The notes beneath the pieces were generated by a model. That model was not told the origin of the DNA. It worked only from the letters and a program-made list of their open reading frames with translations, and did no database searches. A DNA stretch of 64,000 nucleotides, from the NCBI RefSeq assembly GCF_905475395.1, contig NC_058338.1, forward strand, positions 7,020,935 to 7,084,934. The letters are read 5' to 3'. Position numbers and translations under genes: made by a program. Every line of letters starts with the position of its first letter. The stretch's first letter is position 1. Source of the stretch: Chrysoperla carnea (Eukaryota > Arthropoda > Insecta > Neuroptera > Chrysopidae). Of the stretch, positions 9,452 to 59,500 are shown piece by piece.

Positions 9452-13162
<3,711 letters not shown>

Positions 13163-21457: not shown

Positions 21458-21941
21458 GTAAGTATTTGTAAAAATTTTGCTTCAAAAATTATGAGTCATT
21501 TTTGTATGTACCTACACTCACTGTCAGAAAAAGTGCCACAGTTAAAACCATTCTAAGCGTACGCATCATATGTTATGTTATAATAGTAACACTTAGAATG
21601 TTTTAAAACGAGCATTTTTTGTGACATTGAGTATACATAATTTCGTAACATTCCCTCGGACAAACAATGCGAATACTTTGTGATCTCACCCCGCAAGTTG
21701 ACAGAACAGCGTTGCGTTTTATTATTGAAAAAAAATTGAGAGGTTTTCGACAAAGGTCGCATTGTGATCCAAAAAAGGCTCGATTTAGGTTTGCAAAAAA
21801 ATTTGACAATGGATTCTTAATAAAACTCGACGAGATTGGTATTTATGTTCTCTTTTATAAACATCGCCTGGAGTATACCCATATCGGTTTTATAAACTTT
21901 TGAATAGTTTTTAAAGTCCTGTATTTTTTCGGAAGCTTGTA

Positions 21942-24071: not shown

Positions 24072-24681
24072 TAGGTATTAAAGATGCATAATAACAGTTC
24101 CTTGTTATTTTATTTAGTAAACAAATAAATTCTTTCACATAAATAAACACATATGTTTGTTTTTGCGATTCTGAATGATTTTTTTGTTGTTGTTGATAAA
24201 ATCTGTTTAATTTGGATAAATAAACTCAATTACAAAAAAAAAAAATCAATGGCTGATTCCATACGTGACTGACACTACATTCTGAACTCGTTTCGTTCAT
24301 ACTAGAAACAACATTATCTTACTTCCGAGTGCGTTGTGTGTGATAAATAAAAGTTGTTTTTGATAAGACTTGATTAGTTTTAATTTTAACTTGTTAAAAA
24401 TGATTTAGAATGTTGCGCAAATGTGTGCAAAATTATTATTCTAATTTATGTGGTTTTATTATTCTATAGACTAGATGCTTATTTTTAAGCACGTGTAGCT
24501 AAAATAATATATGAAAAACTCCTAATAATACACCGAAAATTTAGTATTTGAACGTAATTTATTATGTCCATTAACTCAGTTAATTGTTTGTTTTCACTTG
24601 TTTTGCTTAGTATTTAGTAGACACTGTTGAAAATTATTTCGAAAATTATAAATATATTTTTGTTTGTTATTTATTTTCAAG

Positions 24682-26913: not shown

Positions 26914-27713
26914 CATTTAAAAAGTATGCTAGTGTAACGCCGCTTTCTCATAAATTGACAGTGAGACTTTCAGGCTTCCGTAACTATGTCCATATAGAAC
27001 AACAACTTAAATCAAGATGTATTCAAATGTAAAATAAACATATTTATGAAGGTACCTCCATTGTCTACGCTATCAAACAATCGAACCAAAATAAATGAAA
27101 ATAAAGACATAAAAAATTTGTTGATTATCTGCCCTACATATACATTTGATTTAAATATCTATCAAATTCGGAAAAATCAACAATATTCATTTTGATAATT
27201 TTTTGAATAGCTGAGAATTTTGTTTTGTTGTTAAAAACTTCAAAATGATTGATCATCACTGAATTAATTTTGATTATGCTGTAGTTTACAGAGGGCAAAG
27301 AGCAAAAAAATTTGTTTACTATTGCCATACGATTAAGTTTCAATTTGTTATTTGTTTTATCGGTAAAATCCGAGTCCCCTTTTATTCAGAAGGAAAGGGT
27401 TGTCCATAAAGGACGTCATGCTTTTTCTGGCAACTTTTGACCCTCCAAAAAAAAAAAATTATTTTTCAATTATTAATGCATTTGTAAAGAAAACTAAAAA
27501 AAAAGGGAATAAATGTTATTTTATTTATCATTTGGGTCAAGAATAAATTAAATTAAATTATTTTATGACAGTTAATTGAAAAAATATTTTATTTTAATTA
27601 CTTATCATTTGATAATATAAATTTTTTTGTCAGGAAGATCATTTTAAATCAATCTCTTCTAATATTATATTATAAATATATATAAATGGATTTTAATGGA
27701 AAATTTTATGAAT

Positions 27714-34400: not shown

Positions 34401-34571
34401 GATAGTAATCAATTCGAATTACCAACAACACAACCAATTTCGGTGAATCAACAGACTTCTGGGATACCACAAGTAACGGCAAGGGATAATACTAAAGATC
34501 CGTTAATGCATGACTTGTTAGATAATTTGCAGATTGTTCAGAACAAAAATTCAAATAGAAATATTGCTTGA
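28449..34571 (+). CDS. Toll: Toll receptor, copy A (Toll-1 type)
   Basis: Five coding exons (28449-29650, 30422-30707, 31886-32095, 32228-33248, 34135-34571) join in phase into about 1051 residues. Order: signal peptide, many N-glycosylated leucine-rich repeats, a first cysteine-capped LRR end ([12 protein letters not shown]), an LRRNT cap (CPQKCNC near 609), a short second LRR block, an LRRCT cap (NPWMCEC), a membrane helix near 779-804, and a TIR domain from about 834. TIR landmarks are [26 protein letters not shown] and [11 protein letters not shown]. The TIR end ([20 protein letters not shown]) closely follows the Toll-1 pattern known from flies. Such receptors bind Spaetzle-type cytokines and signal through MyD88 to NF-kB factors. 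Translation begins in the exon at 28414, which is spliced from a distant non-coding exon near 21.4 kb. Introns 1 and 4 hold a 315-bp tandem repeat. No break is seen. Confidence 0.92.
29805..30410 (+). repeat. 315-bp tandem repeat, two copies, Toll A intron 1
   Basis: GGATAAAATTTGGATGTGAT starts units at about 29807 and 30124. The body includes TTTTGGGTCATTCTTTTCA and ATGATCACAAATTTGAAAAG. The same family fills intron 4 of this gene at 33270-34090. Confidence 0.85.
32127..32165 (-). mobile_element. SINE B-box fragment in Toll A intron 3
   Basis: It is the reverse complement of GGGTAGCGGGTTCGATTCCC followed by GCCG, as in the SINE at 18607-18700. It lies about 60 bp before the next acceptor. 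Confidence 0.55.
33270..34090 (+). repeat. 315-bp tandem repeat, about 2.6 copies, Toll A intron 4
   Basis: Units start at 33421, 33736 and 34051, giving an exact 315-bp period with very few differences between neighbours. The array begins about 20 bp after the donor and ends about 45 bp before the acceptor, so it fills almost the whole intron. Toll B has no such array in its 163-bp counterpart intron. Confidence 0.9.
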
Positions 34572-35146: not shown

Positions 35147-35440
35147 CGAGTGGCCTAAGGCGTAAGTCTTAGAACGTTGGACTATTTAAACTTAGGTTGC
35201 GGGTTCGAATCCAGGCAGCGGTAGTGTGAACAATTTGTAATTAATGGGAATGCAGAATTGATCACATTGTCGTCGCTTGGATAAGAACGAAGTAACCGAC
35301 TCCATCCACATCAAAAATGTAATTGTCAATGTTTGTAATTGAATAAATAAAGATTAACAAATAATGATGTGGGTGGTCTCTGTGATAAGGCGTATGCCAT
35401 AAAAACGGAGGTTAAACCCCCATTATTATTATAACGAATT
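35147..35440 (+). mobile_element. tRNA-derived SINE
   Basis: The head TGGCCGAGTGGCCTAAGGCG resembles a leucine- or serine-tRNA A-box, and GGGTTCGAATCC is the B-box. A 200-bp unrelated body follows and the element ends in an ATT-rich tail (CCCCCATTATTATTATA). Confidence 0.75.
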
Positions 35441-35654
35441 AATATGTTTTTCTAAAAATTAATGAAAATAGTTCAAATTTTATAGAAATAATATTAGAAT
35501 AAGTTATTTTTTAAGAGATAAAAATATCTAGTCTAATTTAGAAAAAGGCTGTGTGTACAAAGTTACTGCGAAAGCAATTGTTAATTTTGTATTGTGTGAC
35601 TTTTGTTATTTCGACAATTTGACGCCACATACAAAAGAACACAGCTCAGATCTG

Positions 35655-35990
35655 AATAGCCGCGGAAACGAAACACTAAAAACAATTAGAGTTCGAAAAA
35701 TTTAAACAGCAAAACGAATCAAGTAATTTTGTGACCTAAATTGATGACCTAAATGTTTCCAAACTCGTTACTCCCGGGTTTTTGGGGTCGCTGAACACAA
35801 ATATCGCGATAGAATCGGGCACAAGGTTCCTCGGAGTAAAATTATGTCGTAATATTCACTTGTTTTTAAATTTCTAATAAATTTCCTGGCGCTCTAACAA
35901 ATCGAATGCCGAAAACCGCATTCAAATCCGTCTTACTGTTCAAATTTTCGAACTTCAGTGCAGCTTCGTTTCCGCAACTATAAGTAAACA
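35655..35990. mobile_element. Inverted-repeat MITE
   Basis: GCGGAAACGAA with GAGTTCGAAAAATTTAAACA on the left has reversed counterparts (TGTTCAAATTTTCGAACTTC, TTCGTTTCCGCAAC) on the right. A one-ended copy sits at 17796. Confidence 0.65.
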
Positions 35991-38549
35991 GTTTTTAAAG
36001 TGATTTTAAAGATATTTAAGTGCCAAATATTTAATAAATTATATATTTTAGTTATTTTATGTTAACAAACAAAAATAAATTGTATATATTTTGTTTAGTG
36101 CTGAATTAAATGAATTAATTGTTCATATATCCTGTACAAAAGTGTTGAATGTCAATAATTGCATTATTTATTTGGTTTACTAAAATTTTTTTTATTTTTT
36201 CCGAGAATGTTTTACAAAACCTTTAGTTGAAGCTACCTGTAAATTTTCAACTCCCTTGCTTTTATAGTTTTGGAGAAAATGGTCACCCAAATTTTTTTCT
36301 AATTTGCGCCCTCACGGGTGAGCAGTGATATTTACAAAAAAAATATTTCAAACAAGTTAACCTCGGGTTATTAAGAACAAAGGTAATTTTTTAATCAAAA
36401 AATTTTATTTAAGAAAAAAACATTAATAATAAATTCGTTTTAGGAACTATGAAATGATATTAGCTTCGTTTATTAATGGCTTCCAAAATTACAACTTAAT
36501 GGCTACGTTTTTCCAAACTAAAACTTAAAGACTGTTTGTCAAAAACCATGCTGGAAATACCTTAAAGTTGTGAAATACCTTGAAGTAAAAACTCAATAAA
36601 GTAACTGAGCGTTCAGTTCTGCAAAACGCAGCCATCAATAATATAAGAAAACGGTCAATTAAGCAATAAATAAATAATATTTCTTTGTACATAGCTTAAA
36701 TTTTGACAGAAATCATTTTTTAAATCATTGTTAATTTAAGGAAGGCATGAAGAAACGAAGATATCCAAATGCATGTCACAATAGAGGACGGTGAGGCACA
36801 GTAAAACACGTGGCAGGACCGCAATATTTGTATCTTATTTCAAGAGACATTTCGGACCGAATTACACAAGTTTATCTTCACGTTTATTTTTTTTTATTAT
36901 TAAATGCTCGTATTTTCTTAATTTTTGGTACATATTTCTCATAATAATTGACATCGGAAAATACCGTTATCCAAAGTAGAAAACTATTCGAGCCTGGTTT
37001 CACATCAAACGTCCCCAATAGGGTATAGTGAAATATAACGGAATATTATATTCCATTTCTAAATTCTATTTATTAGTAGACTTATTACAACTATTGAGCG
37101 AGGCAGAAAATTTTTAATAAATAATACTGTTCCTCTGTGTCTCACCTTCCCCTACCGATCAAAAGATGGGACGTATTTATAAAATAGAAAAATTATTAAA
37201 AAAAAAAAACAATTCTTTTAAATATACATTGAATAGTCTGCGGGACAGTACTGAATGATTAATACATACTTCGTGAGTGATTTCCTTTTGACGAGTCTAT
37301 CAAACTTTCTCTCTACGACATTTTTTCAAAGGTGCTGCGTTTTCAAATGGGCATGATAACATAATTTTTAAGCTATCGGTTAGAAAAAATGCAATAGGGA
37401 ATTTGTCGTTCACTATTATCACTTGATAACATTAATAATTATTAAACAATTTAGCCAAAGTGACGAAAAGTGAAGTAAGTACTGCATGTTCGAGGTGGTA
37501 TACAAGCACATCGGTGCAGTATTTTTGTCGCGCCTAATTTTTTATTTGTTAATAATTATTAATGCTATCAAGAGGTCATAGTGTCCATATAGCTTAAATA
37601 TGACGTTATAATTTTCATTTAAAAATGAAACACTTTCGAAAAAAAATTTTAGAGAGAAAGTTTTGTAGAATCGTAAAAAAGGAAGCCACTTACGAAGTTT
37701 CAAGTTTTGTCCTGCGGACTAGAAAGTTCGACCATAAAACACATTTTATCTCATTTTATTTTAAATTTCATGCCTTCAAGACAGTATACTTGTGGAAAAT
37801 GTGATGTTTTTTTTTTAAATACTACCATTTGATGCGTATTTTATGGACGGACTCTTTCTGAAATTATTAAAGCATAACGAAATAGTCATTTTTTAGGGTG
37901 AAAAAATTTCCACAAATGAAAGCGTCGATTATCCAAAAAAAAAAAAAAATTAACATTGTGGGTAATTCCAAAAAAATAAAATTTATAAACATGAAAACAA
38001 AAACAAAATAATTTTCTTTGGGTATACTTTTGGGATAACAAGATTTTGCAGAAATTGGACTAATCTCTCCATTCCCATTTAAATCAAATGAAAAAAGTAT
38101 CTAAAATAATTTAAGAGACGGTGTAAGATTTTCATCCATCTGATAACCAGATGAGACAAATTCGATCGATCTCCTACCGTCTCCTGTATCAAAAGGAATG
38201 TACTTCTTGGTGATTGTGATGTGTGACAGTAAATTTAAATGCTAGGTATTAGTTTATCCTTAACTTCGCTTGTTTTTCGCGAGTCAAGGAAATTTAACCT
38301 TCTTATGAATATTTCCGATAATAAAACATAAAATTTTGAAAGCGAAATTCGCGCTTCTTGATATTTTATCATTTAATAATCATATCAAAAATTACTTTTC
38401 TAATAAACTTCGTTCGTATCCTTAAATCAATCTTACTCTTTCTGGAAAATAATTTAATAAAAATTTGTATAAAAATAATTTTTCTCATCAAAAAAGCACT
38501 CTTAAAGATTCTTCATATATCACAAATAAATTCTCTTCTTTTTCTCGAA
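35991..38549. other. Intergenic stretch between Toll A and Lerp 3' end
   Basis: No gene is supported. It holds a partial dispersed repeat (36225-36400) and a hairpin at 37408-37575 whose arms share ATTAATAATTATTAA. Frames at 36791-36979 and 38358-38555 look like chance ORFs. Confidence 0.5.
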
Positions 38550-41500
38550 TTATAAAGTTGATTCATTTTCCTGAAAAAGAAAATTGTTGTTAAGAATAAT
38601 AATAACATAAATGGGTACCCAACACCTTAAATGTGCCCTTCTTAAGAACCACCTACCACACGAAGGTGGGACGCCTTCGGGAGCTATTTTAAGCAGATGA
38701 AGCTATAGGATTCTGTCGAAGCCATGCGCCACGCAGAAAACCCACAGCTTCTCCGCCGAGTTTGGTCCCAGGTTTGATGAATCCAAGATTCCGAGATCGA
38801 GGATTTGGACTTAACGAGGTTAAAATTATGGAGATTCTACTGTAATAACTTTAGAAATTTTGTTTTGAATATTCTCATTCCTTGTGAATTATTTCTACTA
38901 AAATTTAGAGTTTTCAAAAAACCCATTATTTAAAAAAAAAACAAAAAAAAAAACCCTACAAATGTGCTAACATTCTTTTTCAGCATTTTGGGTTTTTTTT
39001 AATCCTTTAAAATCTACCCTTAACTCGTAAGTTGAATAGGTAATTGGAAATAACGTTAAAATTATTACATATTTGTAAACATGTTTGTGGGTTTTTAAAA
39101 AAAAATTCCATATTAAAAAAAGTCTTACAGTAAGGAAATCCCGAAATTACACTAGAAATTAAAAAAATTGAGTTAATAGTTGAAATACCCTGTACAGAAA
39201 GTGGTGATTATCAATGCTTGCCATATTGATATCTTTTTTTGTTTTTGAGTTACCGTCTATAAATCAATTATGTAATTATATTGCCTATAATGATTTAAAA
39301 GTAGTTTTTTAAGTTTTCTTACAAAAATGAGAGTGCAAAGTTTCCAAAATATTTCTATATTGTGCGTTAAACATTGTTGAAATACAAATTTGTGTACATA
39401 CCCATCTTACCTGAACATAGCCGCCATTTGCCGTTCTAGTAAATATTAAATGATAACGTTTTTTATAAATATAAAAACATAGCGGAAATAATAATATTAA
39501 AAATATTGCAATACAAATTTTTAATATTATTGAAATTGATGACGACGCTGAATGTATGATAACGTTATTATCAGTGTCAAAAATTGGTAGATTTTTAGCA
39601 TGAATTAAAGTAGATTCTAATCCCAAGAAATAACATGCATCACGAACATACCAATCGAATTCAGTCAAGCAATTCGTTTCCTGCAAAAAAAATAAATAAA
39701 TTATTCAATTTTGTATAATTATGGTAAAACAAAATTTATATTTTGAGAATACGTATTTGTTTTCTTATAGGCAACTTGTATTGCATATCTGTTATACAGA
39801 TGTCCTAAAATTAAAGCAAGAAGTAATTTTGATTTAAACTACTTTCTTATAAAACTTATTTTTCGAAAATAAATAATTCATTCTGATGGTCCTTTCTAAC
39901 ACCCTATATATATAAAGGACCTCGCACAAATGAGATGTAATCTGCATTTCGCTCAAACTTTTTCAAATTTTGGGGAATGAGTTTAAGTCATTCTAAAGAA
40001 AAGTTCCCATGGTTACAAGTCATGAAAATGACAGAATTTCATGTTATAGCTAAATTAAAGTTGGAAAATGTACTTATTTGTATAATATATGCCTATGTGT
40101 GTATAGGCAAATACATATACAGATATGTATAACTACATGCATACATGTATTTTTTAATGTAAGGGTGTTGTTTTTTAATTCTTGTTTTTTTGAAGAATAT
40201 GTTACGAAATTCAAAGAAGCAGTGTTAAATGTTCAGTGGAACAATAATATGAATTGTTAAGATCAATATTTTCATCTACATATAATACGTACATGATTTT
40301 TGACAATTAAATTACAATAATTTTTTTATACAAATGAGTACATTTTCCAATTTTAATTTAGCGATGACTTGTGACCATGGGAACTGTTATTCAAAATGAC
40401 TCAAACTATCATTTGTCAAAATTTGAAAAAGGTTGACCGAAATGCAGATTACATATAATTTGTGCGAGGTCCTATATAATTAATTATCAAAAAAAATGTC
40501 AACTCAACGCAAGGGAAGGGGTAATTTATTTCATGACCTAATTGTTTAATAATTGTAAAACAATCCGGGCCTGGTTAAAACTTACAAAATATCTACATGC
40601 AAATGTTTAGGACATTTTATGAACGTGAATATAATTTTAATGAATATTTACAGTTCAATAACTACAAATAAATAATATTTTATTCATATGCGTTCTAGAA
40701 AAATGATGTATTGTCATTGGTTTATTCAATTGAAACACGTTGAAAAACAAACTATTCAAATTAACAATAAATTATCTCGTTAATAAAACAATAGATCGAT
40801 AAACTTCTAAGAAATTTTCTACTTCACAAACATTCGTTTTAAAATAAGAAATTAAATTGAGTTAACCTAATTTTATACGAAAATGTCTATCAAGTTGCCT
40901 ATATTTTTTTTTTAATTTCTTGAATTTGTTGAATTTTGTATGAACAGATTTAACAAAATACGAAAATGTGATTAGATAGAATTAATTTTGCAATATTGTT
41001 TATTTATTTATCTAAAAATTGACTCATTTTGATAAGCAATATATGTGATAGTTTTCAAATAAATTGAACATTTAATTTAGTCAAAGAACCCTTATTAAGA
41101 TCAAATTATTGTCTACAATTTTAGTTTTTACTCCCATTTTTTTTTTAAATGACAGAAAAGAAGCTATTGAATCAAAGAATGGATTTTAAAAATGAGACAC
41201 ATTCACAAGACTATTAAAGCCACCTACAAATTTACAACTCCCTATGTTTTATAGTTTTTGAGAAAATGGAAACTTAAGATTTGCCCTAATTTGGACCCTC
41301 TCGGGAAAACAGTAATGTTAACGAAAAAATGTTTCAAACAAAAGTTGTTTATTTTTTTATAAGGAACAGTTTTTACATTTAAACTTTTGCTCTATCTCTA
41401 ACGGTCTAAAAGATGTATCCTACGTCCAACCTACTCAAGACCTATTGTTGACCTAAGTTGTTCATTTACGAACTCTGTGCTGATAGACGAATGGGCGAAT

Positions 41501-44500
41501 CGACAAAGGAAAATGACTTAATTAGGTTTATGAACATCTATGCCAAAATTCAATTTGTAGCATTAATGTTTCTAAGCGTTACATTCTGATAAATTTCCTA
41601 TACTGGGTATAATAAAAATTTTGAAAAAGGGACACTTATATTTTTATTAGTATCTCATTGGTCATTTGTAAAATTCCAAATTAATCGAAAAAAATAACAA
41701 AAACCATCAAACATTACTTAATATTTTCTTTCAAAAATAAGATACATTAAACTTATAACAACAACGCATGCGTAATAAATATTACTTAACCAACCATACA
41801 AATCTCATTCCACAACAACAATATTAAAATATTATTAATATTTTAAAAGTGTAGAGTGGGAGAATCATAATTATTAACAGTGTAATCAAATCAACTTATT
41901 TATTGTAACTAAAGTTAATACTACAAAGTTTATTCACCAATAATTTTACTTCGAAATCATATATTTATTAGGTGGTGGCGAAAAAAAAATCGAGCAACAT
42001 TCTAAACGAGAAATATGTGATCGTTAACAAGGATTAATAAAATTTTAATGACACGTAGTTATTAAACTCAAAATAGTGTGGTTTTGTTATAACCAAAAAC
42101 AAGTTTCTCATATTACCTTGAAATCACAAACGGAATACAGTGTGTTTCAGTGAAGTGTTTGTTAGTGTGACCAAAAAAAAAACTTTGGTATCATGTAAAT
42201 AAACATTAAATGTGTGAAAAAATGTGTTTGAAGTGAATTTTCAGGGTGTATTAAATTCATTAAAATGTAGGTATTTGCAAAATATTTGGTTAAAATTCAA
42301 TAAAGACAACATGAATCATATTTATATATATAATTTTCTTAAATATCCTCTGTCAATTTTAATGAACAGTGTTGATACAAATAAATTTATTTCTTGAATT
42401 AATATGTGATAATTTATCAAATTTTTGATAAATTCATGATTTTAAGTCGTGCTATCTCGAAAACGGTGAGATGAAGTGAAAAATAACAAGCCAAAAAAAG
42501 TTTTTAGAATAATTTGGCCAGAATATAAATTTCAATCGTTTTTAAATCAAATATTTGGTCATAATCATACGATAATCGCCCTATTTTGTTGATGAAGAAA
42601 CTTTAGCTTAAATATGCGATTTTTTTTACAACGCTTATATCTCAAAAACGATGGGTAAAAAGAAATAAAAATTGTTTCAAATCTTCCAAAACATGAAAAA
42701 CAATAAGTTTCAAGTTAAATATTTGATAGAAACCGCACAATAATCGTTAATTTCAACTATCAAATTTTCATAAAAATTAGGTTTTTTTTTCAATCACTTG
42801 TATCTCAAAAATGATGAGTTTTAGGAAAATATGTCACAAGCCAAAAAATGCTTAAAATAGCCCAAAATATAACATCCAATGGCTGAAATTTCAAGATTTT
42901 TCAGCAGAATTAGCTTGTGCGAACTTTTACGAGCGCGCATGATAAAAGCACTTTTTCTAATCAATACGACTTTGTCCTACACATGCATACGAATATTTTG
43001 AACCGCGTCGCATAATTGCAAAATTTTGGCCTTTATCCAGCTTCATTTCTTAGATTATATGTCTATTTTTCGAGATGTATGGATCTTAGGAGAAAAAACA
43101 AAATTTTAACATTGACCTATTCGTTGTGTGCGTAGTCATGGTAGGGATAATAAAATCGATGCCAGCGCTTTAAGTGAAAAATTTTGGAGATAAAGTGGGC
43201 TGTTATGACTAATTTGCAATTATTTACATGTTAATGATATAGAAACTGTCAAATTAAAATGATTGAAAAACACTAATTAATTAAACTTAATGCATTAAAA
43301 ATTGTGAAAATAAGAAATCAAATTGTACAAATATTATTTTTCAAATGTTAATTATCGTAATTATTTATTTAAATTTGTGAAACAAGAATATTAAATTTTA
43401 AATGTAAGTTTTCAATGCAATCCACACAATTATATATGCATCCATTAATTCTATAATTAAAGTAGTGTATCGTTGTCATGGAAACGAAATTCACGCTCAG
43501 AGCGAATTAAGTCAATTTGAATTTTATTTCTATAGCAACGTTTATAGTAATTATATGCGACTATAATTTTATTGATCAATGAATACAACAAAGAAACTCA
43601 ATCAGAAAGTTATTAATCTGATTCTTAAGGGATTGATTTAGGTTTCAAAAAAAGTGGGCGTGAAAAATAAACTTTTTTATTTAAAATAGTATTTTCCCAG
43701 AACATTGTTTTTGAAATGAAATGGGAGCTGTGTAGTATTTAGTAGTGAAATATAAAAACACGTGATATATTCATTATAAAGCCGTGTATCTCTGTACAAT
43801 ATTGTAAAAATGTTTCGGACTTTATGCACGGTAATAGAATATACGCGTTTATAGTCAAATAAAGTGTTATTTTTAACTCTAATGTACCACGCGACTATTT
43901 GTCATAATAAATATTGTATACCAAGTGCTATGTTAACATAGATATCTCTCTTCAACCACCAATACTATAATTATAGTCGTTTCTGTTCAACAATAAAAGA
44001 TTCTCGCTTTAATATTTACGAAAATTTTGATCATCAAGAGGCAGTAAATATATCTTGAAAAAAAAGTGCCCTTCTTTCGTGGCGCTCTGATCGTAAGGAT
44101 TTTACATACTTTTTGTCTGTTTTTGAACTGACTGATATGTTATGTCACCAAAATAGCTGATAGCGTTTTTGCGAAAATAAAAAATGAAAATCAACATTTT
44201 GAAGTACTTTTTCAAACATAGTAGAATACCCTATTGTAACACTTTTTGATAGTAAATAAACACGTGATGATAGTAAATTATCTGTTAACGGGTTTCATTA
44301 AATTTTTATATTAGATTACTAAGTAAAGTTGGTAACGTTTAAACAGTTTCTTGGTATTTTAGTAAACAAATATAAATTATTTAATATAAACACATGTTTT
44401 CGCGTTTCAAAATTTAATGATTTTTTTGATAGAATCTATTTCATTTGGATAAATAATTTATTTATAAAACGTAGTAAGACAGATTAACAGTTAATTTTTT

Positions 44501-47500
44501 GTATAAATAACTACGCCTACTTTATTTCGTACTATTAAATTAGTGTATGTAACGCTTAGAAATTTTGATGCTACACACACAATTTTGGTATAGATTTTTA
44601 TAAAATCACCTAATTAATCCATTTCCACCCGTTTGTGAGCACGATAACACAAAACCGAAAAATATATTGAGCTGAAACTTTTATAACATATTCAGAACAT
44701 AAAAACGAACTTTGAGTTCGTTAATGAGCAACAAAGTTCAATTGGGTCTTGGGTCAGTAGGATCCATCTTGTAAACCGTTATAGGTAGAACAAAAAAAGT
44801 TTCTTAATTAAAAATAAATAAATTTTGTTTAAAAGAGTTTCTATTTTTGAGATGAATACATGAATTTTATTAATAATCTAAGCACAGAAGTAATTACATA
44901 TGTAACAGTAACTTTCCCAAGATGTAATAAGGATTCATTCGAAAAGGGTTTCTTATGATAAGATTTTTCTACGTAACACAGCATAAATTTTAATTAACTT
45001 GTTAAATTGATTCAAATTATAATAAGTACATGCGTCAATATATGAAAAATTACGAATTTATTGTGGTTTGTAAATCATAGATGTTTATACTTAAGCCTAG
45101 ATCGCAAGCAAGCTAATAATCATTGAAAATTACAATCGGTGATTGAGCTTCAAAACAGTTTTCATCATTTAAGAAAAATTTATCACAGATTTTTTTCATG
45201 CAAAAAGACATTACTTTAAAGCGCTACCCAAAAAGAAAACATAAAAAAACTTTGGTTTTTAAAACATTTACGTGATACAAATATTATTTTTATTCATAAC
45301 ATTAACTTTGTTCATAACTTGGACTTAAATTCAATGAATATAAATTACTTGCTAACTTGACGATTGGCGGCCGAACTAATTTAAGATTACTTAATACCCC
45401 AAAAGCAAGAATCTGACTATTTTCTTGTACAATTTTGTACACATCGCCTGAAATTCTTTGGTAAAAAATAGAAAAATCAAGTTTATTTAGCTAATATTTT
45501 GACACCTTTTAATAACTAACGCCAATATAGCTTAAATCTATTGAAAGTTAAGAATTAATCTATAAGATAAATCCTGTGTAAGCTATCTAATTTTAATTTA
45601 AAACATTTATGGCTCATAATAATAAAATAATTATTTCATACACTAATTAATAAGGTTGTAGTTTCCATGCAGACTAGCTTGAGGCAAGAATTTTTTTTTT
45701 GAGGCAATTTTTTTTGAGTTTTGGATAAATTTTTTGTACTTTTCCAAAAAAAAAAAAAAAAAACTTGTATCTTTTTTTAGTAAGTTTGTTAACCACAATT
45801 TTAATTTATTCAAATAACCGGTTAAGTTTATCCAGCTAAGCTACACTTTAATACAATTCGCTTTAAGTTTACCTATATGTATGCTTTTTTTATTAAACAT
45901 ACTTAATTAAAACTGAATTTAATGAATGACGTCTTAGGAGATTAAAAGTAGTTCCTGTGTGGTAATAGGAAATCACTGATTACATGGATGGAAATTCCAA
46001 AAGAAAGGAAAAGTTAGTGAATTTTATCAATTTTTCAAAAACAAAACCTGATTATTTAAAGTTCGACATTATAATGTCTCCTGTACTATTAAGCCTAAAA
46101 ATTAGGGCTTTCCCAGACGAAATTATGTTAATTTACGGTTACTTAAAAAATTTGAGCCTGTGACCTTCCATGCTTAAGAATAATTTCTCAAAATTTTATA
46201 TAAATATTTTTTTTTTTATCAAGCGCTTCAATAATCATAATCTAATTTTTTTTATAAAATAATTAATCGGTCTGATTTTATAAAAGATTATAAAAATTTA
46301 TTGTTTCCGGTAGTTAAGTAAAAAGGGATTTTCGTTATTTAGTAATATTGAGAAAAAAATATATATTTCATACCTGGGTAGTAAATCCCTAAATTTTTAT
46401 TGCTATAAAAGTTTAACGGTTTAACCCCTAAATGTATGGGTTTTTCCTAATTTGTTTATAATATTACGGTATGTGTAATAAATCATTCGATATTTGCAAT
46501 AAGTAATACAAAAATTTTTACTTGACCCTTATATTTGTAACATAAAATTGATAACCCTACTAACGAAAGCAAAAATAATTTTTTGGAAACCCAGAAAAGA
46601 ACTTTCATTCTCATTTAACATGTTTTTTTCCTTAAAAATTTTATAATTAACAGAGAAAACCATAAGGTATAAATATCTCAAAATTTCGGAATTCAGGGAA
46701 GCACCTCAAGCTTTTACAAACATGGCGTCTGGTGATGGCCGTATTGAATTTTCATTACTGCCATATCTTCTATGACCCTCGCAAGATTAAGATAATTCGA
46801 TTGACGTAAGAATCATCAAAATCGGTCCACGCGTTTGTTCTCTAGTATGCCACATAGGAACATACATATCACTCCTTTGAAACGGGTAGTCGGGTAAAAG
46901 TGTTAATCAACGTAAAAGATTTGAGGTTGTAACCTTTGAAGATAATAATTTTGTAAATAAATTTTGTATTGTACAAATTGTTTTCTGATAGAAAGTCGTT
47001 GTTTTTACTCCGAAAATTGAAATAAAAGGGCTAGGGCTCCATTTTTTAAAATAACGTATAGACTCTTCGTAGTCAAATTAGGAAATATTGATCGTTAGTT
47101 ATTGAAATTCAATATAACTAGAATTTATTATTTAACCATTTCTACTGTAAGTCTAAAATTTGTTGGTCTGACCTTTGAATGTCATTATCTACCATGGCTT
47201 GTTTGAGAAATTTTTTTGGGAAATTTCAATGCTAATTATCTACGCAATTAATTATTGACAAATTGAAATATTATTAGTTAAAAATGATAATTACACAATT
47301 CGAAAAAAATCATATATTCTTAAAAAACCGGTTTTTAACCACAAAGGAAATTTTATTAGCCAATATCTTCGAATTTTAGTATCAAAAGCATCTTAAGACA
47401 CCAAAATCGTATACCTATATGATATTTTTCGATGGTGTGTTACAAATTGAACACAAAGAGAAATTGAATTGATAAGGAATCAACAATCATTGTCATTTAA

Positions 47501-50500
47501 TGTGTTTTTTATTAAAAAAATAAAGTTTTTTTTTTGTCTGACTAAAGAATATTAACCACAAAATACGATAAACATATATAAAGTGGATGTCCTTGAAATG
47601 AATGCAATAAGATTTTTATAAACAAAAAAACTCTCTATAAATTCTATCAAATAAACAGCCGATCAAGTGCGAATTTCACTTACACACGACAGTGGTTCCA
47701 CAACAAGGCTAATCATGAACCTTTAACTGACCCCCAACATATTATCATTTTGTTGTTAAGGACGTTCCCACAAAAATGAGTGTATGAAAATATTTATTTA
47801 AGTTTCAAATTTTGATGGTGGATTCTGTTAAAATTTGGGAAAATTAAGACGAAAATTAACAGTAAAAATGTTAAGATTCTAAAACTATTATATATATTTA
47901 TATTTATATCCTATGATCCCGAGGGGGGCGTAGGGCCTCAACAAATGCTCGCCAACGAACTCGATTCTGTTCTTGCTCCAGGGACTATTATAAAACTATT
48001 ATAATAGCTAAAAATTTTCAAATGAGCTATAACGTCCCAAATTCGACTATTTTTCACTGAGATAAAGCTGTTTCAAATTTTGTGTTTTTAAAATTTGTCT
48101 TTAATAATTTTGATGAGTATAAAATATTACAAAAATTCTTTATCAGAATTTGCAAACCTAATCGTAAATACTCTTAGAAAATTATTGTTTTAGAACTACC
48201 AAGATTACCTCTAAATATTAAAATATCATGAGTGTCTAATTAAATAACCTTGTGACAATCTCTTTGCCACTATCTCTAAAATTTCGTTAGGCACTTTTAG
48301 TTTAATGTAATAACAACAGACAAGATATAAGATGTAATAACATTTACTTTCTCTTAATTCTCATGTAATTTGAAGAAGTGAAAGTTATTTACTTATTTCA
48401 TAATATATCACTCGTAATAATTTAAAAACAATTAAGGATGTATAAGCACGGTAGTAGCCGCACAAATTTATAAAATATATTTTTTTAATTTTGATAATAA
48501 ATTATATTATAACTTGACAAATTAAGACGAAAAGTAAGAATAAAATTTGTCGATATCTGGCGTAATTTTCAAAAAATGGAAAATTTTGTTTAATTAAGGC
48601 ACATATCGAAAAATTTTATTCTTATTTTTCGTCTACATTCATGAAATTATAACAAAATTCATCATCAAAGTTAAAAATAAGATAAAAATAATTTCAACCC
48701 TAAATCTACCCTACTCTTACATCCCTTATATGTATGGAGACACTTGGTTTTTTTTCTTTTCTATACCATTGCTTACATGTTTACTTTTTTTAAAATTTGT
48801 TTTCATTCATTCCAAGTGCAAATTATCAAAAACTCAAAATATGTCTTATTTTTGAGATTCCTCCATAAGAGCCAATGTATTTTATATCGACTCCGTATAA
48901 CCACAGCTAGGCCATTCGACTGTGCTCAGCAGAAACTCACAAGAGCGCAATTGAGAAGGTTGGCACGACTCCTTTCAGGACACTGTCACTATTAAGGCCA
49001 TTTAAGCTAGGCGATGAAGTCTCCATAAATGTTGTTTGAACCTACTGAAACCTGCGGAATGTCAGTTTAGAATGTTTGGGTCCGAAACCTTAGATCCAGC
49101 AATCTTGGGAAAAATCCCGACGGAGAAGCTGTGGGCTTTTTGCGTGGCGTCTGACCTCCACAAAATCTATCGCTTAAAATAACATCTTTTATCAGTATTC
49201 CTTGATCTAAGCTCGAAATTCCATTTGCGGTACCCCTCTTATATATTATTATTATTAACCTTTTTCCAGAAAGAAGCGCAAGAAAACTCTCTATAATTTT
49301 ATAATAAACAAAATAATTTTTTTATTTTTTTCAGAATGTGGTATTGACTTAAGAAAATACAAAGAAAAATGTTGAAACAAATTTCCATAATTTGTATCGT
49401 GATCACATTTTTCGTACAAAAAATCCACAGTGAAAAATGTGAAATCGAGAGTCCATTTTGTGATTGTCAATATGAGGACAGATATTTTAAATATCAATGT
49501 ATATCAGATCGTAAAGATGAAAGCTCCCGTCAAATATCAAGCCCTATATATCTTCATGTCGATCCAAGTAAAGCTGATGCACAAGTTCAATGTGCAATAA
49601 ATAGTGAAATTGAGGATTATGATGCATTACCAGAATTTTCAATTCAATATTTAGAGAAATTTACCATTTATTATTGCCCGATTAATGAAAATTTCACATT
49701 TGAAAATTTTCTAAGAAAACTCAATGTTCATACAGTTAAGGAAATTGTTTATATAATGTCTCCAAGTATAGGTGGCACCTTTATAAATGGTGATTTTTTC
49801 GAATCAATGGGAAATTTAACGACCCTAACTCTCAAAGTAAATCCAGATACAATTATTCATTCCGACTTACTGAAAAATTTGGAAAAATTAGTGATGTTAA
49901 CCGTCCGAAAAGGTCATATTAAGTTTACACCAAATTTTTTCGAAACTACATCCCAAATTCAATGGATTGAATTTTCTGAAAGTAATGGCCAAGATTTACC
50001 TGGAAATATATTCCAGAATTTGTATAATTTAAAAAAAATTGGATTATGGAATATGAACATATCAACTTTAAATGAATCGATATTTCATTCGTTGGAAAAT
50101 TTAAACATTTTAGATCTAACTTCGAATAAATTAGAAACATTACCGGAAACGATATTCCAGCGCTTACAAAATCTAGAGATAATAAATTTAAATTTTAATC
50201 GATTTGTATCGTTACCAAGCCAAATATTTCAAAACAATAAAAATTTAACGGAAATTAAGTTAAGCAATAATGCGAACAGTTTAACTTTATCGAATGGATT
50301 ATTCTCGAATTTACCAAATTTGAAAGGTATATTTTTGAAGCAAAGTAAAATTGAAAATGTATCAGAAGATATTTTTTGGAATTCATCAAATATTATAAAT
50401 ATATCGTTGAAAGAAAATCAACTCGAATATTTACCAGAAATGTTATTTCGAGATGCAAAGAATTTATTGAATTTGGATTTAAGTCGAAATAAAATTACAA

Positions 50501-53500
50501 GTATTCCCGAAAAGTTATTTAAATCGTTGGATAAATTAGAAGAACTTGATTTAAGTGTGAATCAAATTTCATCTATTTCGTAAGTATTAATTCTTTTTTT
50601 TCTATTTGACCGAAGGCAGATTAAAATGGAGCTTGGTTAGGTTACGTGACTTCAGTTTCATATAGATGGAGGTCAGTGGGTAACGCAGCTTCTGTATAGT
50701 TGAGGAGGTAACGCAATTTGTATGTTTCCAAGAGTTTTCATGCAGTCACGGCGTTACAAACAGAGTCAACTTTCAGCAAACTGTACAGAGTCCGTTCTTT
50801 ATTCATTGACCTCCATCTCTTATGAAACTGGAAAGGGATATCATTATCTCTCTAACTCTGTTCTATGGAAAGAAAAAAAATCCATGATCCCTAACTTTCT
50901 GCCGCGTGATAAATAAACTCCTGAATCAATGTTGAGCATGTATTTAGCATTATTGAAAATTTTAAAGATTAATTTTGATTTAATTTTTTTTTTCAGCGAT
51001 AATTTTAAGTACCAAGTGAATTTACTGAACTTAAATTTAGGAAATAATTCATTAACAAGATTAGAACATAATGCATTTCCACGTTCAAAGAGTTTGATAT
51101 CATTAATTTTAAGGCATAATCAATTATCATTTGATGAATACTCGGATCCATTCAATAATTTACTGAGCCTACAATATTTGGATCTGTCACATAATAATAT
51201 TACGTCAATTTTATATTCTTGGCGAAACGTATTGACATCAATGAGAAATCTTAATTTAGCATATAATCAAATTAAAGGAATTGAGGTAAGTTCAAATATA
51301 CTTTAATGTCTAGAATTATTTAATACCCATCACAGAACGTGAAGTTTAAATCTAAAAAATGTTCCTTATTAAAAATTAAACAACTTTTGTTTGAAACATT
51401 TGTTCGTAAACATAACTGTTTACCCGTGAGAGCACAAATTATATACGTGGGACATGTATGTATGTGTTGTAATGTGACAGAGTAATCAACACTGTCTACT
51501 GTTTACTGTTACTGTTTGTTTTCACTTGTTTTAATAAGAAAAATTGATTAAATTCGCCCCTGTATATCGGAAATTAAACTTTGTTATCATTAAAATATAA
51601 ACTAACCAAAATTCTAATCAAAAATATTTTTAATGAACAATTGACCACTCTATAATATAATAAACAGGAAATAATAAATGTGGTTACAAAATGGCTGAAT
51701 TGTTTTTCTAAAATGAACGAAAGCTGATTATAGTACAGTGTGTTTCGGCGAAAAATATTAACTCATCCGAGTTTTCGACACGATCTAATTTATTAATACT
51801 TATATGTGATTTGTTTCAGTTTGACGATATATTTTTTGGTCGTCAATCGCATTCAACAACACTCGATTTAAGGAATAATTTAATCCATACCATTAATTTA
51901 CAATCAGCTGAATATACAATTTCAACTCGAACGTTGGGTAATACGGGCGGTATTTATGATGCAAGATCCGGACGGAAAAGTGATCAAATAATAATATCAA
52001 ATAATCCGTTAAATTGTAATTGCAATATTCATAATTTAGTACGATATTTCAAAAGAGATGGAAGAATGATTGAGGTAAGTGTTTTTCAAGTTCTTCATAA
52101 ATTGTGAGACTTTTTCTCATCACGGGAGTAAAGATGTAAGCAAGAAATTGTGAACTTAAGCAGGAAATTTTTGGGCATGTTCGTTCACTAACTTTCGGAC
52201 TCTTTCTCATGTTGAAAAATGAAAAAATCTTCCAATTCTTCCTTTATTGTGAGGTGAAGAAGCTTTTGTCTTCAAAAATTAAACTTCAGTTTTACATATG
52301 TTTTATAAAATTCTGTTACAGGTACGGGGTGCAGTTGAATTAATAGCAACCGATTTAAAGTGTGCCGGACCAAAAGAATTACAAGATCATGATGTAAAAG
52401 ATTTAGAACTGACAGATCTTTTCTGTCCCATTTCACCTAAAGATTGTCCACAAAAATGCAACTGTAAAGCCAGAAAATTGGATCGCTCAACATTTGTGGA
52501 TTGTTCAAATAATAATTTAACAACAATTCCATCAAAATTACCCCAAATATTTTCTTATCCAAACATTAAATTATATATCAACAATAACAATTTAAGTAAT
52601 TTTGATATAAATCAAACTTTCGCAAATCATAGTGGTTATCAAAATGTTCGAGAATTGTACATCCAAAATAATCGATTATCTGAGATAACTTGGCTTCCAA
52701 ATCAGCTACGTGTTATCAAATTACATTCCAATCGTTTTGAACGAATTAATATCACTTTACTGCAAAATTTATCAAATTTGAAAAACATAACATTACATAA
52801 TAATCCATGGATGTGTACATGCAAAAATGTGGATTTCATGAGCTATATCCAAAAACAAGCCGCGATTATCGATAATATATCAAATATTTTATGCGATCAA
52901 ACCGCGTTTTACAATATTACCAAGAATGATTTGTGTGAAAATTCAACGGTAGCACTGGTTGGGATTACCAGTTTCTTTATAATTTTTACGTTAACGACGA
53001 CAACTTTGTTAATTGCGTTCTATCATAATCAGGACGCAATTCGAGTTTGGTGTTACAAGCATAAAGTATTCTTATGGTGGGTTTACAAAAAAGAAAATGA
53101 TATGGACAAGGATAAAAAGTATGATGCGTTTGTGTGTCATGCGCATCAAGACGAAGACTTTGTAACGCAACAGTTAATACCAAATTTGGAAGAATGTGAA
53201 AGTCCATTTAAGTTGTGCATACATTCAAGAGATTGGTTAGCTGGGGATATGATACCTGATCAAATTGCACGAGCTGTGTCGGATTCGAGACGAACTTTGG
53301 TTTTGTTATCACCCCATTTTTTGGAAAGTTCTTGGGGTAAGTTGTACTTTCTTATTTTATGAGTATTAGGTTACAGAGAATTCCAGAAATTGTGAAGCCG
53401 ACGAGCTTGTTAGAAATGACATAAAACTGTCGCATTCTTATCAAATTGAAAACTTCCTTCTTTTCGAAATCGATTAATAATTCATTATTTTCTTTGCAGC

Positions 53501-56500
53501 AAAAATGGAATTTCGTGCTGCTCACAAGAATGCATTAGACGAAGGCCGATCACGTGTCATCGTTATAAAATTAGGCGATGTGGATGAAGATAAACTTGAC
53601 GACGAATTAAAAGCGTATCTAAAATTAAATACGTACATTGAATGGGGCCATAAAACATTTTGGGATAATTTACGTTATGCGTTACCACATCAACAACCGT
53701 TGAGTAAACGTGCTAAACTGTTATCACAACATATTAAAAAAGCGATAGGTGATAAACAATTTGAATTGCAAACAGTCGCTTCGAATATACCACAAATTAC
53801 GACATCCGATAACAATAAAAATCCGTTAATATTACGTGAACTGTTAAATAATTTACAAAAACAGATTGTCCAGGAAAATAATGTAAATAGAAATATTGCG
53901 TAAGGAAATTAATTTTTGTTATTGTGAAAATTCTAGTGAGATTATTTTTATAAATTTTTATATAAATGAGAAAAAAAAAAGTTTGATTTGCATTTATTTT
54001 GGAGGGAATAGTTTGTAAGTTTTTTTCATAAGGTTTGAGTCACAGTGAAATAAAAATGATATGCTATTTTCAAGCAGAAAAATATCTAGTCTAAATGAGA
54101 AAAATCGACGTAAAATCTACCGATTTATTAATTATAATGGCGATCTACTTATTTGGCTATGTGGATTCTAGTTTTAAAAATAAGCCGACTTTAAGGTAGT
54201 ATGACATTATCGATGGTCACAGTTAACTATTAATAATAATAGCTCGTTTTATATATAACCAATCAAAAAATGGCTTAAACAAAAGTAGATAGTTTGATGG
54301 AGGATAGTTCTCAAGGTTGCTTTAATACTCATTTAGATCCTAAAAGGTAAAACATAAAATAACACTTTAAATTAGAAAGTTGATCCTCATAAAAAACCTA
54401 ACATTTTTTTATTTAACATTTTTTCGAAAATCGTTAGCTCTCGGGGAGAAAATGCAACTTAAAAATATGTCACTATTGCATTTAAACGAAAGAAAATACG
54501 CTAGCTTTAGAAAAATTTTTTAGACAAAAGTTATCAAGGACAATAAAGGTCATTCGTCTGTGTTAATAACTTTTAAATTAGGTAAATTTTCAAGAAAACT
54601 AGAATATCTGGTCAAAGTCATTGACACAGGCGAATGTCCTCTGTAGCTAGAGTGTTTTCTTTCGATTAAATATAATAATGACATATTTTTCCGAAAGCTA
54701 TTGATTTTCAAAAGAACGTAAGTTTTTTTTATAAGTATCAACTTATTTAAAGTGTTACTCTATCTCTTACCTTTAAGGATTTTAATTGACTATGACCCGA
54801 AAAACTAGGTCCAAACTGATATCAGACCATGATGTCCTCCATCAAACTCGGAAATTTTTCTTTATTTTTTAAATTGGTTTACTACAAAACGAGTTATTAG
54901 CCATAACAGATTAAAATGGTCTGCCTTGTATGTAAAAGCAATAGTGATGCTTTCAGCGAAAATATGATGTAATTAACCGTTGAATGTACCGTAACCGTAA
55001 CCGTTTAATGTAATCCAGAAGTGAATTGTACAAGCGACAACTTTGTTCAATTTACTTCGGTTCTGTGACCATGGGTGCTTGTTATACCCTGTGCACAGAT
55101 GAGCCATAATACAACTGCTGTTCAGAGAACTATATTTTGTCTTTTTCTAAGATATACGAGAATTATTACCGATATTTTTACCACAAATACGTAATTATAC
55201 AACGTAATTAATTTTTTAATTTTCCAAAATAAATGTAAATCAATAGTTTAAAAACTACGTGCAATAAAACAAAATGAAGTAATCTTGAACGTCAATGACA
55301 GACATTGTCTTGCAAATGATTTTTTATTAAAGTGATAAATGACAAATTTAAAGTGATTTAAGTGACACTAAATTAAATATGTGTTGTTATATTATATTTT
55401 GTTAAAAATAAATTTTATATTTTTTTTATTGCCGAATTGAATGATTCTAATTCGCATGCAAAAAATTCCTTTGATTCGATGTAACGAGGGTATTAAAGAA
55501 TCAAAGAAATTGTTTGTTTTATAAAAAATTGATTCAATTCGAGTTAGAGTTATTCAATTCAAGCATTAATGTTTTATAAGAAAAAAAAAAGAAATGGTCT
55601 CTTTTTTGTATGATTTATTTTATATTAAAACTTTAAAACGTATCCAAATAAATTAATTTAAATATTTTGGAATTTTCGAGTATCATTTTTATCCAAATCG
55701 AAAACAATAACTTTTGTGATTTTTACGATTTTACTTGTACCCTAGTTTTTCGATCTTTGTATAGGATTTTGGACGATATCTCAAAAAATAAGCTTCCAAT
55801 CATCAAATGAAGCAGCTGATTTCTATGTACTGATAACTTATGTACTAAGATTTAATAGGTTTCAAGAATGTAGGGATTTGAAGTCCCAACATCGAGCACA
55901 AAGATTAATTAAGTGGGATTAGATGTCGCATCCTTTCTTTGACGACCTCTCCGGTTTGAAGTTCGTTGACGTCAAAGCATTCTTGCTGTTCTTTAACAAC
56001 TCTAAATGGTTCATGGAGTAGTGGCCGTGGATGGGCCAACACTCTTTTCGGTATAACAACGGGCCTTATGGTCTAAATGTGTTCCACGCCAGGACAACTA
56101 CCCTAATAACTTAATCTAACCTAACCTACATATAAAAAAAAATTACTCACTTGCTTGACTTGGAATGTTGTTTTCTCCAGATCGCATATTAAGTTGAATC
56201 TCGTAGTGGAATTTTCTAGAGCAAATATTTTAATATCAATAAATTAATAGCAGCAAAAAGAAACCGAAGTATCAAAGGCGATATTTTAAAGCGAATTTAA
56301 AAATGTTACTTACGATTGAGACATGCATCGTTTGACTGATAGACAATAAATTCGACAACGTTTTCTTGATAATTCAATATGGAATTGTATTTAGCTGCTC
56401 TAAAATTCACAGTTGATTCAGTCTTTGAAGTTTTCACCTACAAAAAAAAAAAGAATGAAAATATTAAAAGTAAATCCACTTGGAATAAAACTAATGAACG

Positions 56501-59500
56501 TACTTTAATAATTTCCTTTGATGAATCCAATCCCAACAATTGTCTGAAATCTAATTCTCGAAACAGAATAGGATTTTTCAATATCAATGTACTCGGAATA
56601 TAAATCGCTTTTGATTTTGGACAAAATATTGTACTATACCAATGGTAAATATAATCATAATTTACGGATTCCATTAATTTTGGATTACCAATTCCAGTTG
56701 TGTAATTACAATATAATTTCAATTCTATATTCATGTCCTGGAAATTAAAATTAACATCTTTTTAAACAATTCACAGCCAAATTATAAAAGACCTTGCATA
56801 AAACTAATGGGTAATAACTAATTTGTGCAGGATTCGTTATGGGCACAAAACCATGCGTATTGTTTGACCATATTCCATCGTCAAATCGTGGCATCACAGT
56901 TATCGTACTCTCCCCCTTTTTTTTAACATGATTCCTGGTGAGTCATTTCACCCGGAAATTTTCAAAATGGCCTTGTAGACTAAAGGTATCAATAATAAGC
57001 CTAGCCTTGGGACCAATAGATAAAAGAACTGGTCATTTTAACTATTACATACCTGTTGTTTAGTATTAAATTCGTGGATATTATTGAATCCTAAATGTTG
57101 AGTTGTATTCAATATTAATTTATTACAATAATTTCTTAAATTTTTGAATATATTCTCAACTTTTGAGTCATTTTCAATGTCAAATGTCAATTGTTGTGTT
57201 TCATTATATGAATAATTCATTAATAATGTTTTTATTGTGTAATTATTCATCTCTGACACAATGGAACAGTTTATCTGAAACAAAATCATAATTTTATACA
57301 GGATGTATCATAAGTCACATCGAATCTCTGAAGACAAATTCGTCTAGCCAAAAAAGGGAGGTTCTAGTAACTGATTTTAGTACAAGTCTGATAGTTATGT
57401 GCACAGATTATAGTTTTTAATTAATAGATGCCCTTTTCCAGGTAGCTCTACACGTTATATTCGGGTAGGGCCATCTATTAGTTTAGATAATAATTTATCC
57501 ATTTCAATGATTGTTGGGGAAACAATATTTTATATATTTTTAAATAAATAAACAATACGTCTTTCAAAAATCGTTTGCATGTAATTAAAATTCGTTAAAT
57601 TTCTTTGTGTATATTCTCAATTGATTGTCTTTATTAACACTTTGTGGATTATTTGAATAGTGACATTATTTAAGTATTTTGGCCGTTTTCATTGTGCCTC
57701 TGTTCATTAACTAATTAGTGTAATTTAGTCGTTTTACAATCGAGCGTGAGCAAAATGTTCCTAACGCGAGTATTGATGGGTTAAACAACCAAATGTATCA
57801 TTTACTTAGACTACACATAATCTTACCTTATGTGCTGATATTTCGTCTGCTTTCGGAGGTACTTCAATGACATGATCAGCAATTGAATCATTAAAATTAT
57901 TTAGAATTGAATTCAGATCGACATCTTCATCATTTTCCATACAAGTTTCGTTTGTAAATATTAAAAAATTATAAATATTTGTATTAATTTTCACCTGTAT
58001 GTCTGGCACCTAGAATTTTTATTTCATATTAGAAATGATTAAAGAGAATTGAAAAAAAAATTGAAACTCGAATAGCCTCCTAATTTTTAGGGCGCTTGAC
58101 ATGAATCCTAGAAGTCCGGGTTCGAGTGTATTTTTTTCAATTCTCAAATAATGTATTTTTATATAAATTACAAACCTTATAATTTCGATTACAATAAAAA
58201 TATAAAATACTTTTTCTCTCCGGGAAACTGTTCTTGATCGTATATTCCATTTTAATTGTTTTCGAATTTGAATCATAGCTTGGTTCATTTACAACATTAC
58301 CCAAATTTGTTACCCTAAAATTATCATAAATACATTTTTTTTTCTGCTTTACAAAACGTATCACGCCAAAACTCGACAACTTGTTTTTCATTTCGATCTT
58401 ACTTTGTTTGCAAATTCGCATTTGTATTATCGACCATAATAACACCCGGATTTTGACCGGAATAAAAAGCATTTTCGTTAAAGATCACTGGTTTACAAAT
58501 ATTTAAAATAAAAACACTATTTTTATATGGAATTTCATAATTTACTTCAGTCCGTATTAATTGATGTAAAGTTAAATTTGCACCCCCTTGTACATTACAC
58601 TTTATTTGATCGTGTGGTCGATAGCATGCTAAATTCGTACGCCATTCTAAATTTATTTCACAATTATTATTCTGTTTCATCTAAAACAAAGATTATTAAT
58701 ACACAAGTGAAATTTACAAAAGAAAATCGATTCTTAAAGAATAAACTCCGAATACCAAATTTGGTTCATCCGTTAAGGAGCTACGATGCCACAGACAGTC
58801 AGATACACACATATAGTAGTCAAACTTATAACACCTCTCCTTTTGCGCCGGGGGTTAAAAATAGCTAACGAAATCATTGTTTCTGATTTATTTTCTATGA
58901 AAAATTTATACATACCTCTTTTACAACAATTAAAGAATCATTTCGAGTTTCGTTTAAATTGCATACCATATGCAAGCGTACTGTATATTTCAAATTCGAG
59001 TTACCATTTTGATCATTCGAATACAAAAATTCGATTTTACCATCTTTAAAAATTGGAGTTTTGTTGACAGGACCTAAATATATATCAACAAATTTTAAAC
59101 AAGTCTCGAATTTTCTAAAATATCGCTTACAGCAACCAACGTGAAATATTCCTTGCAACATCGATGGTGTAATTAATATTCGTGGAATCAAAATTGCTGT
59201 GGTAACACAGTCTGACTGATCCGAGTACCGGACTACTCTGATGTTCAAGGAAATGAAGCAGCAAACTCTTTGGCACGAGAGGGTTCGTCTCAAACGACTC
59301 TTTCACTTTAGCCTGTCTTTCCCAGAGCAAGATGTTCCGCAATGTACCGAATCAAAAAATGGCTACGACAAGCCCATCTTCATTACTAGGATTTTGCGCA
59401 GGGTATGCGACAGGTCAAACTGTGAATAATCACAACTAAGCCAGTCGATTATAGTCGCCAGAAACTCGATAAAGTACAGTTGAAAAGGGTGGTGAGACTC

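Follow-up and report, generated by a model that had tools for sequence, protein, structure and literature searches.

Introduction

Nested genes are put at ca. 6% of Drosophila genes, frequently on the opposite strand of their hosts (PMC3786989). The same source describes 2mit, an LRR membrane receptor residing on the opposite strand in intron 11 of Drosophila tim2. At the TipE locus, a duplicated family of membrane proteins occupies an intron (the last one) of an unrelated host gene; this nesting is conserved across insects and lost in the silk moth and Tribolium (PMC3240667). Here, a locus that shares features with both is examined in the lacewing Chrysoperla carnea. The material was a 64,000-nucleotide stretch (the window) comprising positions 7,020,935 to 7,084,934 of contig NC_058338.1 (assembly GCF_905475395.1); all coordinates below are those of the window. 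On its minus strand is a gene of the Lerp type, encoding a lysosomal sorting receptor, and on its plus strand are two Toll-type receptor genes, Toll A and Toll B. As argued below, Toll B very probably lies within intron 14 of Lerp.

The same two gene families are brought together in Drosophila. The deficiency Df(3R)BSC524, like two others, uncovers a six-gene region that includes Toll (PMC4632500), and it served as the Lerp deficiency for hemizygotes (PMC4610224). Because both genes are uncovered by this deficiency, Toll and Lerp are linked in Drosophila within its span. A nested Toll/Lerp pair was not described in the titles and abstract openings surveyed for Toll together with Lerp or with nested genes.

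Results

The predicted splice from exon 14 to exon 15 and the probable nesting of Toll B

Exon 14 of the Lerp model stops within an MRH repeat (...FQVKQ) at the donor CAA/gtgagt. Exon 15 is entered through the acceptor ...ttttttttgcag/GAAACG, which features a strong polypyrimidine tract, and its phase agrees with that of the end of exon 14. The repeat completed by this join ends like two earlier repeats of the same protein, and exons 15 and 8 enter their respective repeats in the same phase and within three residues of one another (ETNC... and MKQNNNC...). The helix encoded by exon 15 has a mean hydropathy of 2.93 over 19 residues and, if the splice holds, is the single helix after the last repeat. 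Splice sites were scored with general consensus matrices; on this scale, the acceptor of exon 15 (8.5) is the highest of the 15 Lerp exons, and its donor, CAG/gtaaga (7.7), is tied for second.

A scan was made of 104 kb (the window extended by 20 kb at both ends), on both strands, for an AG followed in phase by the MRH-end motif. It returned 15 matches at 13 places, and a membrane helix follows at 39680 alone. Twenty single-strand shuffles in 3-base blocks yielded 146 motif matches, one of them with a helix, which corresponds to ca. 0.1 expected per both-strand scan. When the exon 15 protein was compared to the 559-Mb genome, the single match at E ≤ 1 was exon 15 itself (three candidates scored). 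A first-pass annotation of this DNA had proposed that the exon ending at 56151 breaks off in the middle of an MRH repeat and that 39680-39411 is the only exon to continue it, and both statements were borne out. It had also raised the possibility of an alternative membrane exon at 54-56 kb; the both-strand scan placed none of its matches there.

Given the 14-15 splice, the coding exons of Toll B fall wholly within Lerp intron 14, on the opposite strand. This intron is ca. 28 times as long as the next longest, the other 13 spanning 61-585 bp, which also speaks for the nesting. Taken together, the matching phase, the logic of the repeats, the single-copy state of exon 15 and its good splice sites render the nesting of Toll B well supported, and we regard it as very probable. 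The head-to-tail-opposed arrangement put forward in the first-pass annotation therefore holds at the level of sequence, as does its placement of the Toll B unit at ca. 42.14-54.05 kb, which matches an initiator-like TTTCAGTG at 42145 and an AATAAA at 54049. The Lerp pre-mRNA would join exon 14 (at 56151) to exon 15 and would remove Toll B as intron; Toll B would start near the former signal and be polyadenylated near the latter, both inside the host intron. Any interference between the two would be of the ordinary opposite-strand host/guest kind.

Several observations weigh against this reading. The exon 14-15 splice and the nesting are predictions from genomic sequence; the acceptors of Lerp exons 10 (-5.0) and 14 (-2.1) score poorly; and the last Lerp repeat is not recognized as CIMR by Pfam, whether joined or unjoined, so that the case for the join rests on motif, phase and uniqueness. 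No convincing exon for the Lerp tail was found, either between Toll A and exon 15 or to the left of Toll A. A jump of 16.5 kb, out of keeping with the rest of Lerp, and the failure to find a tail exon beyond exon 15 would suit an arrangement in which exons 14 and 15 are not joined, such that Lerp is truncated or soluble, ending just past 56151 by read-through into the intron, with 39411-39680 a relic or a separate small gene. However, a relic would be expected to have decayed, and among the 15 exons none has a better acceptor than exon 15 and few a better donor; it has the right phase and no stop, and it supplies both the missing half repeat and the membrane helix; we thus consider non-use of exon 15 improbable. 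Misordering of assembled segments at 34-62 kb is favored only by the richness of the region in repeats; the window contains no Ns and is part of a 100.7-Mb contig, and such an artefact seems hardly credible.

The Lerp gene model

The model (15 exons, 978 codons) was fitted by hand, exon by exon. Splice sites were picked by eye to hold the frame, and its openness is therefore partly by construction: the spliced frame has no stops in 978 codons, whereas the two alternative frames have 108 and 70. All exon borders are AG and GT. The joined protein matched Pfam CIMR with E = 8.1e-26 (91.3 bits; cut-off, 22.5), and three stretches of the 978 residues pass E ≤ 1 on their own, with putative further repeats judged by eye only; Drosophila LERP has five luminal repeats (PMC4610224). 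Against the PDB, 12 distinct mammalian CI-MPR sequences were matched at E ≤ 1, the best being 6um1 (E = 7.1e-43). A CIMR profile search of the genome gave one match above the cut-off, in Lerp exon 8 (three candidates scored); this search was not exhaustive, as the other repeats of the same gene are absent from its output. Judged by these matches, Lerp is a fair name for the minus-strand gene at the family level. The model begins inside the first recognized exon; an N-terminal exon was not found. Upstream of Lerp and on the same strand, to the right of the window, a gene for ribosomal protein L5 was noted by eye at ca. 65980-68046.

The Lerp tail

The tail begins with ...GGYVQ in exon 15 and is then interrupted by a donor. 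Because this donor is strong, exon 15 does not end the gene; at least one more exon is expected. The first-pass annotation had Lerp ending at 39411-39680: the end of the repeat and the membrane helix do stand there, but the 3' end of the gene does not. Tyrosine and acidic-dileucine sorting signals characterize the cytosolic tails of Lerp and CI-MPR (PMC4610224). Searches were made for Y-x-x-V starts and acidic tails, for acceptors in phase 0 over the stretch 39.4-20 kb and for acidic-dileucine motifs, and the top 45 candidates from a scoring of codon usage and splice sites were examined. This scoring is insensitive: its training set comprised 12,426 bases of Toll-type frames, its amino-acid frequencies were assumed ones, and even exon 15 reaches just 3.4 bits in it. 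These searches gave weak candidates only, at 38570 (ENESTL), 25826 and 22456; the first is provisionally listed in Table 1. High scorers to the left were set aside, as by eye they resemble other genes (a bromodomain protein, an Emg1-like protein and a zinc finger).

The strong donor of exon 15 and the lack of a convincing tail exon from Toll A to exon 15 raise a further arrangement, in which Lerp spans both Tolls and has its tail exon on the left side of Toll A; the block of exon 15 plus Toll would have been duplicated after nesting, with subsequent loss of the far exon 15. Such an order requires no new splice. The searches to the left of Toll A likewise turned up no convincing tail exon, and Toll is not known to be nested in Lerp in Drosophila. 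The arrangement with both Tolls nested is unlikely.

Toll A and Toll B

Toll B contains LRR_8, LRRNT and TIR domains, with a membrane helix identified by eye, and its best PDB match is Drosophila Toll (4lxr; E = 4.2e-71), collinear with residues 42-774. Toll A was identified through its alignment to Toll B only. The two proteins are 64.5% identical, and each is encoded by five exons with borders in the same phase. Overall synonymous and nonsynonymous divergences (dS and dN, Nei-Gojobori) are 0.42 and 0.24, respectively; along the alignment, dS ranges from 0.22 to 1.42, with the greatest divergence at the N terminus and just ahead of the membrane helix. This unevenness hints at gene conversion, uneven constraint or diversification. 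When the genome was searched with a 338-residue part of exon 5 of Toll B, seven places were found at E ≤ 1e-5 (27 candidates scored), namely Toll A, Toll B and five more distant ones, of which the best is 33% identical.

Two further features of the Toll introns were observed. A unit of ca. 315 bp recurs in two introns of Toll A (29802-30408 and 33268-34088), with longer matches 88-96% identical; none of its matches listed in a self-comparison of the window falls in Toll B. Also, 31175-31299 (Toll A) and 51555-51682 (Toll B), which occupy corresponding introns, are 75% identical without an open frame, and the rest of that intron showed no Toll A/B match in the self-comparison.

Extent of the duplicated block

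As delimited by alignment, the Toll A/B block reaches past the coding region to include a predicted 5' exon and ca. 1.5 kb of 3' flank. The 5' exon regions (21329-21486 of Toll A and 42111-42295 of Toll B) are 70% identical (E = 4.5e-19). Both hold TTTCAGTG, which resembles an arthropod initiator. Farther upstream, 20961-21223 and 41820-42066 are 63% identical (E = 9e-12). Four other segments (20752-20828, 23528-23634, 24093-24237 and 27509-27683) were dropped from the upstream comparison as repeats or untested, and the similarity of 27.6-28.0 kb to 39.8-40.5 kb, a repetitive element, was not retained as shared flank.

The shared 3' flank consists of three collinear pieces scoring 48.3, 42.5 and 32.6 bits. 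In 150 shuffles, the best score was 41.1 bits and the highest second-best was 34.0 bits; the first two pieces exceed the shuffle range, and the third lies within it and therefore does not stand out. The last 17 bases of 35994-36120 overlap a repeat. Counting against a shared 3' flank, three of 19 other noncoding pieces used as controls score 62.5 bits, above the best flank piece. These three overlap one place near 17.6 kb, and the other controls among the 12 of 19 listed score at most 31.1 bits. A repeat near 17.6 kb (17797-17860 with 35656-35719, and 17907-17831 with 35880-35954) is taken as the cause of the high control scores.

Searches of the genome with 41820-42295, 55347-55452 and 35437-36103 returned no other copy (40 candidates scored for each), with 53907-53983, 54047-54099 and 20961-21486 outside their scope; because the twin Toll copy was also missed, these searches rule out closely similar repeats alone. 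Between the outermost non-repeat similarities is a spacer that holds Lerp exon 15 and the repetitive palindrome at 39911-40478. A repeat within it (41279-41619) has a relative at the corresponding place of block A.

Proposed origin of the nesting

The first-pass annotation had asked how the Toll duplicate landed in an unrelated gene. This framing is not the preferred one: the copies are direct, they share the 5' exon, the coding exons and the 3' flank, and Toll and Lerp are linked in Drosophila. The linkage is probably ancestral, the two genes having been neighbors before the duplication. From such a state, in the preferred reading, local tandem duplication of the Toll block beside the Lerp 3' end may have carried Lerp exon 15 with it, and one copy of exon 15 may then have been lost, leaving one Toll within a Lerp intron. 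A route by duplication and loss, in either of two forms, is evenly balanced between acceptance and doubt on the sequence evidence. A duplication across ancient convergent neighbors (Toll and the 3' end of Lerp), with the near Lerp membrane exon lost and the far one kept, such that nesting arose by exon loss rather than insertion (possibly with both Tolls inside Lerp), is a tentative proposal.

If the Toll block was simply duplicated in tandem, exon 15 must once have existed twice. Searches of the genome and the window with blastn and tblastn gave no trace of another exon 15 on either side of the present one, which speaks against duplication and loss. The best tblastn match other than exon 15 itself had E = 0.11. 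The candidates from blastn, with E = 6.7e-5 (34.6-39.4 kb), 8.5e-4 (20-28.4 kb) and 0.004 (53.9-56.15 kb), were at the noise level of AT-rich DNA and were rejected; a Smith-Waterman search was uninformative, its gap costs being too mild for such DNA. With simulated remnants, a threshold of E < 1e-6 recovered all 60 of 60 at a divergence of 0.42, 39 of 60 at 0.6 and one of 60 at 0.8; with E ≤ 1e-3, recovery was 58 of 60 (divergence 0.42) and 41 of 60 (0.6). Alignment has been lost over most of the noncoding flank, so that the actual divergence may be high, and failure to detect a remnant is weak evidence.

The same absence would be expected had a dispersed segmental duplication, resembling transposition, brought a Toll copy into Lerp intron 14, exon 15 never having been duplicated. 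The intron is dense in repeats, and a segment beside exon 14 (55914-56117) resembles a repeat at 11820-12024, both of which could be cited in favor of insertion. The copies nevertheless stand in direct orientation only a few kb apart and have 5' and 3' flanks in common, as from unequal crossing-over, and insertion appears rather unlikely.

Feature coordinates and other elements

The coordinates of the features discussed above are collected in Table 1.

Table 1. Features of the Toll/Lerp locus in window coordinates.
Feature	Position	Strand	Remarks
Lerp/CI-MPR-like gene, exons 1-14	56151-62120	-	Open frame; AG/GT borders; Pfam CIMR; PDB CI-MPR
Lerp exons 1-5	62120-62026, 61964-61891, 61467-61134, 61065-60781, 60423-60167	-	
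Lerp exons 6-10	59875-59659, 59073-58916, 58680-58403, 58314-58176, 58009-57827	-	
Lerp exons 11-14	57274-57053, 56737-56504, 56437-56314, 56215-56151	-	
Lerp intron 14	39681-56150	-	16,470 bp; contains Toll B and repeat elements
Lerp exon 15	39411-39680	-	Completes last MRH repeat; encodes membrane helix and beginning of cytosolic tail
Lerp tail exon, weak provisional candidate	38550-38570	-	ENESTL-stop; good acceptor; ATTAAA at 38458
Toll B 5' end	42111-42295	+	Initiator-like TTTCAGTG at 42145; presumed noncoding exon; possible donor GTAGGT at 42267
Toll B coding exons	49369-50579, 50997-51285, 51820-52074, 52322-53336, 53500-53903	+	1057 aa, intact
Toll B 3' flank	53907-55452	+	AATAAA at 54049; 53907-53983, 54047-54104 and 55347-55452 align with Toll A flank
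Toll A 5' end	21329-21486	+	Initiator-like TTTCAGTG at 21361; presumed noncoding exon; donor GTAAGT at 21458
Toll A coding exons	28449-29650, 30422-30707, 31886-32095, 32228-33248, 34135-34571	+	1051 aa, intact
Toll A 3' flank	35437-36120	+	35437-35505, 35485-35546 and 35994-36120 align with Toll B flank
Spacer between Toll blocks	36121-41819		ca. 5.7 kb between outermost non-repeat similarities; holds Lerp exon 15

Repeats are frequent at the locus. Lerp intron 14 contains a palindromic element (39911-40478) resembling a miniature inverted-repeat transposable element, with at least 125 matches in the genome, itself included, among the best 40 of 381 candidates. A palindrome in the 3' flank of Toll B (54223-54914) is repetitive genome-wide, and a further palindromic element lies beside the Toll copies at 37268-37698. 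The segment 55914-56117, mentioned above, is 78.6% identical to 11820-12024; the latter is the end of an open reading frame at 11310-12024 that by eye resembles a retroelement RNase H region. Elsewhere in the window, the repeats at 6214-7209, made of VIVKYYDLCSTPQ and VIVFYYDLWSGAQ units, are open on both strands. In the genome, TTAGG arrays gave 196 forward and 262 reverse matches, and a search for TCAGG arrays gave none.

Discussion

The locus offers a natural case for the origin of nested genes, in which insertion may be set against the duplication of a neighbor with subsequent host-exon loss. An immune receptor is here physically linked with a receptor for lysosomal sorting; should the exon-loss route be true, one immune receptor would be locked inside a housekeeping gene. 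If the nesting is shared by relatives, the copy number of Toll and the splicing of Lerp may constrain one another.

The gene-in-gene arrangement is of an ordinary kind, common in insects, and the interest of the present case lies in the route, namely local duplication of a neighbor around a host exon. Each of the closest described systems matches a part of it. Drosophila has the same two gene families under one deficiency (PMC4632500, PMC4610224). The TipE locus likewise combines a duplicated membrane-protein family with an unrelated host; unlike the case described here, in which one of two Tolls is nested as modelled, it carries several paralogues in one intron and its nesting is old (PMC3240667). 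2mit shares with Toll B the position of a membrane receptor with LRRs on the strand opposite to its host, but it is a putative LRR receptor, and the portion of its description available to us mentions neither a TIR domain nor a tandem pair flanking a host exon (PMC3786989), both of which characterize the Toll/Lerp locus of C. carnea as modelled here.

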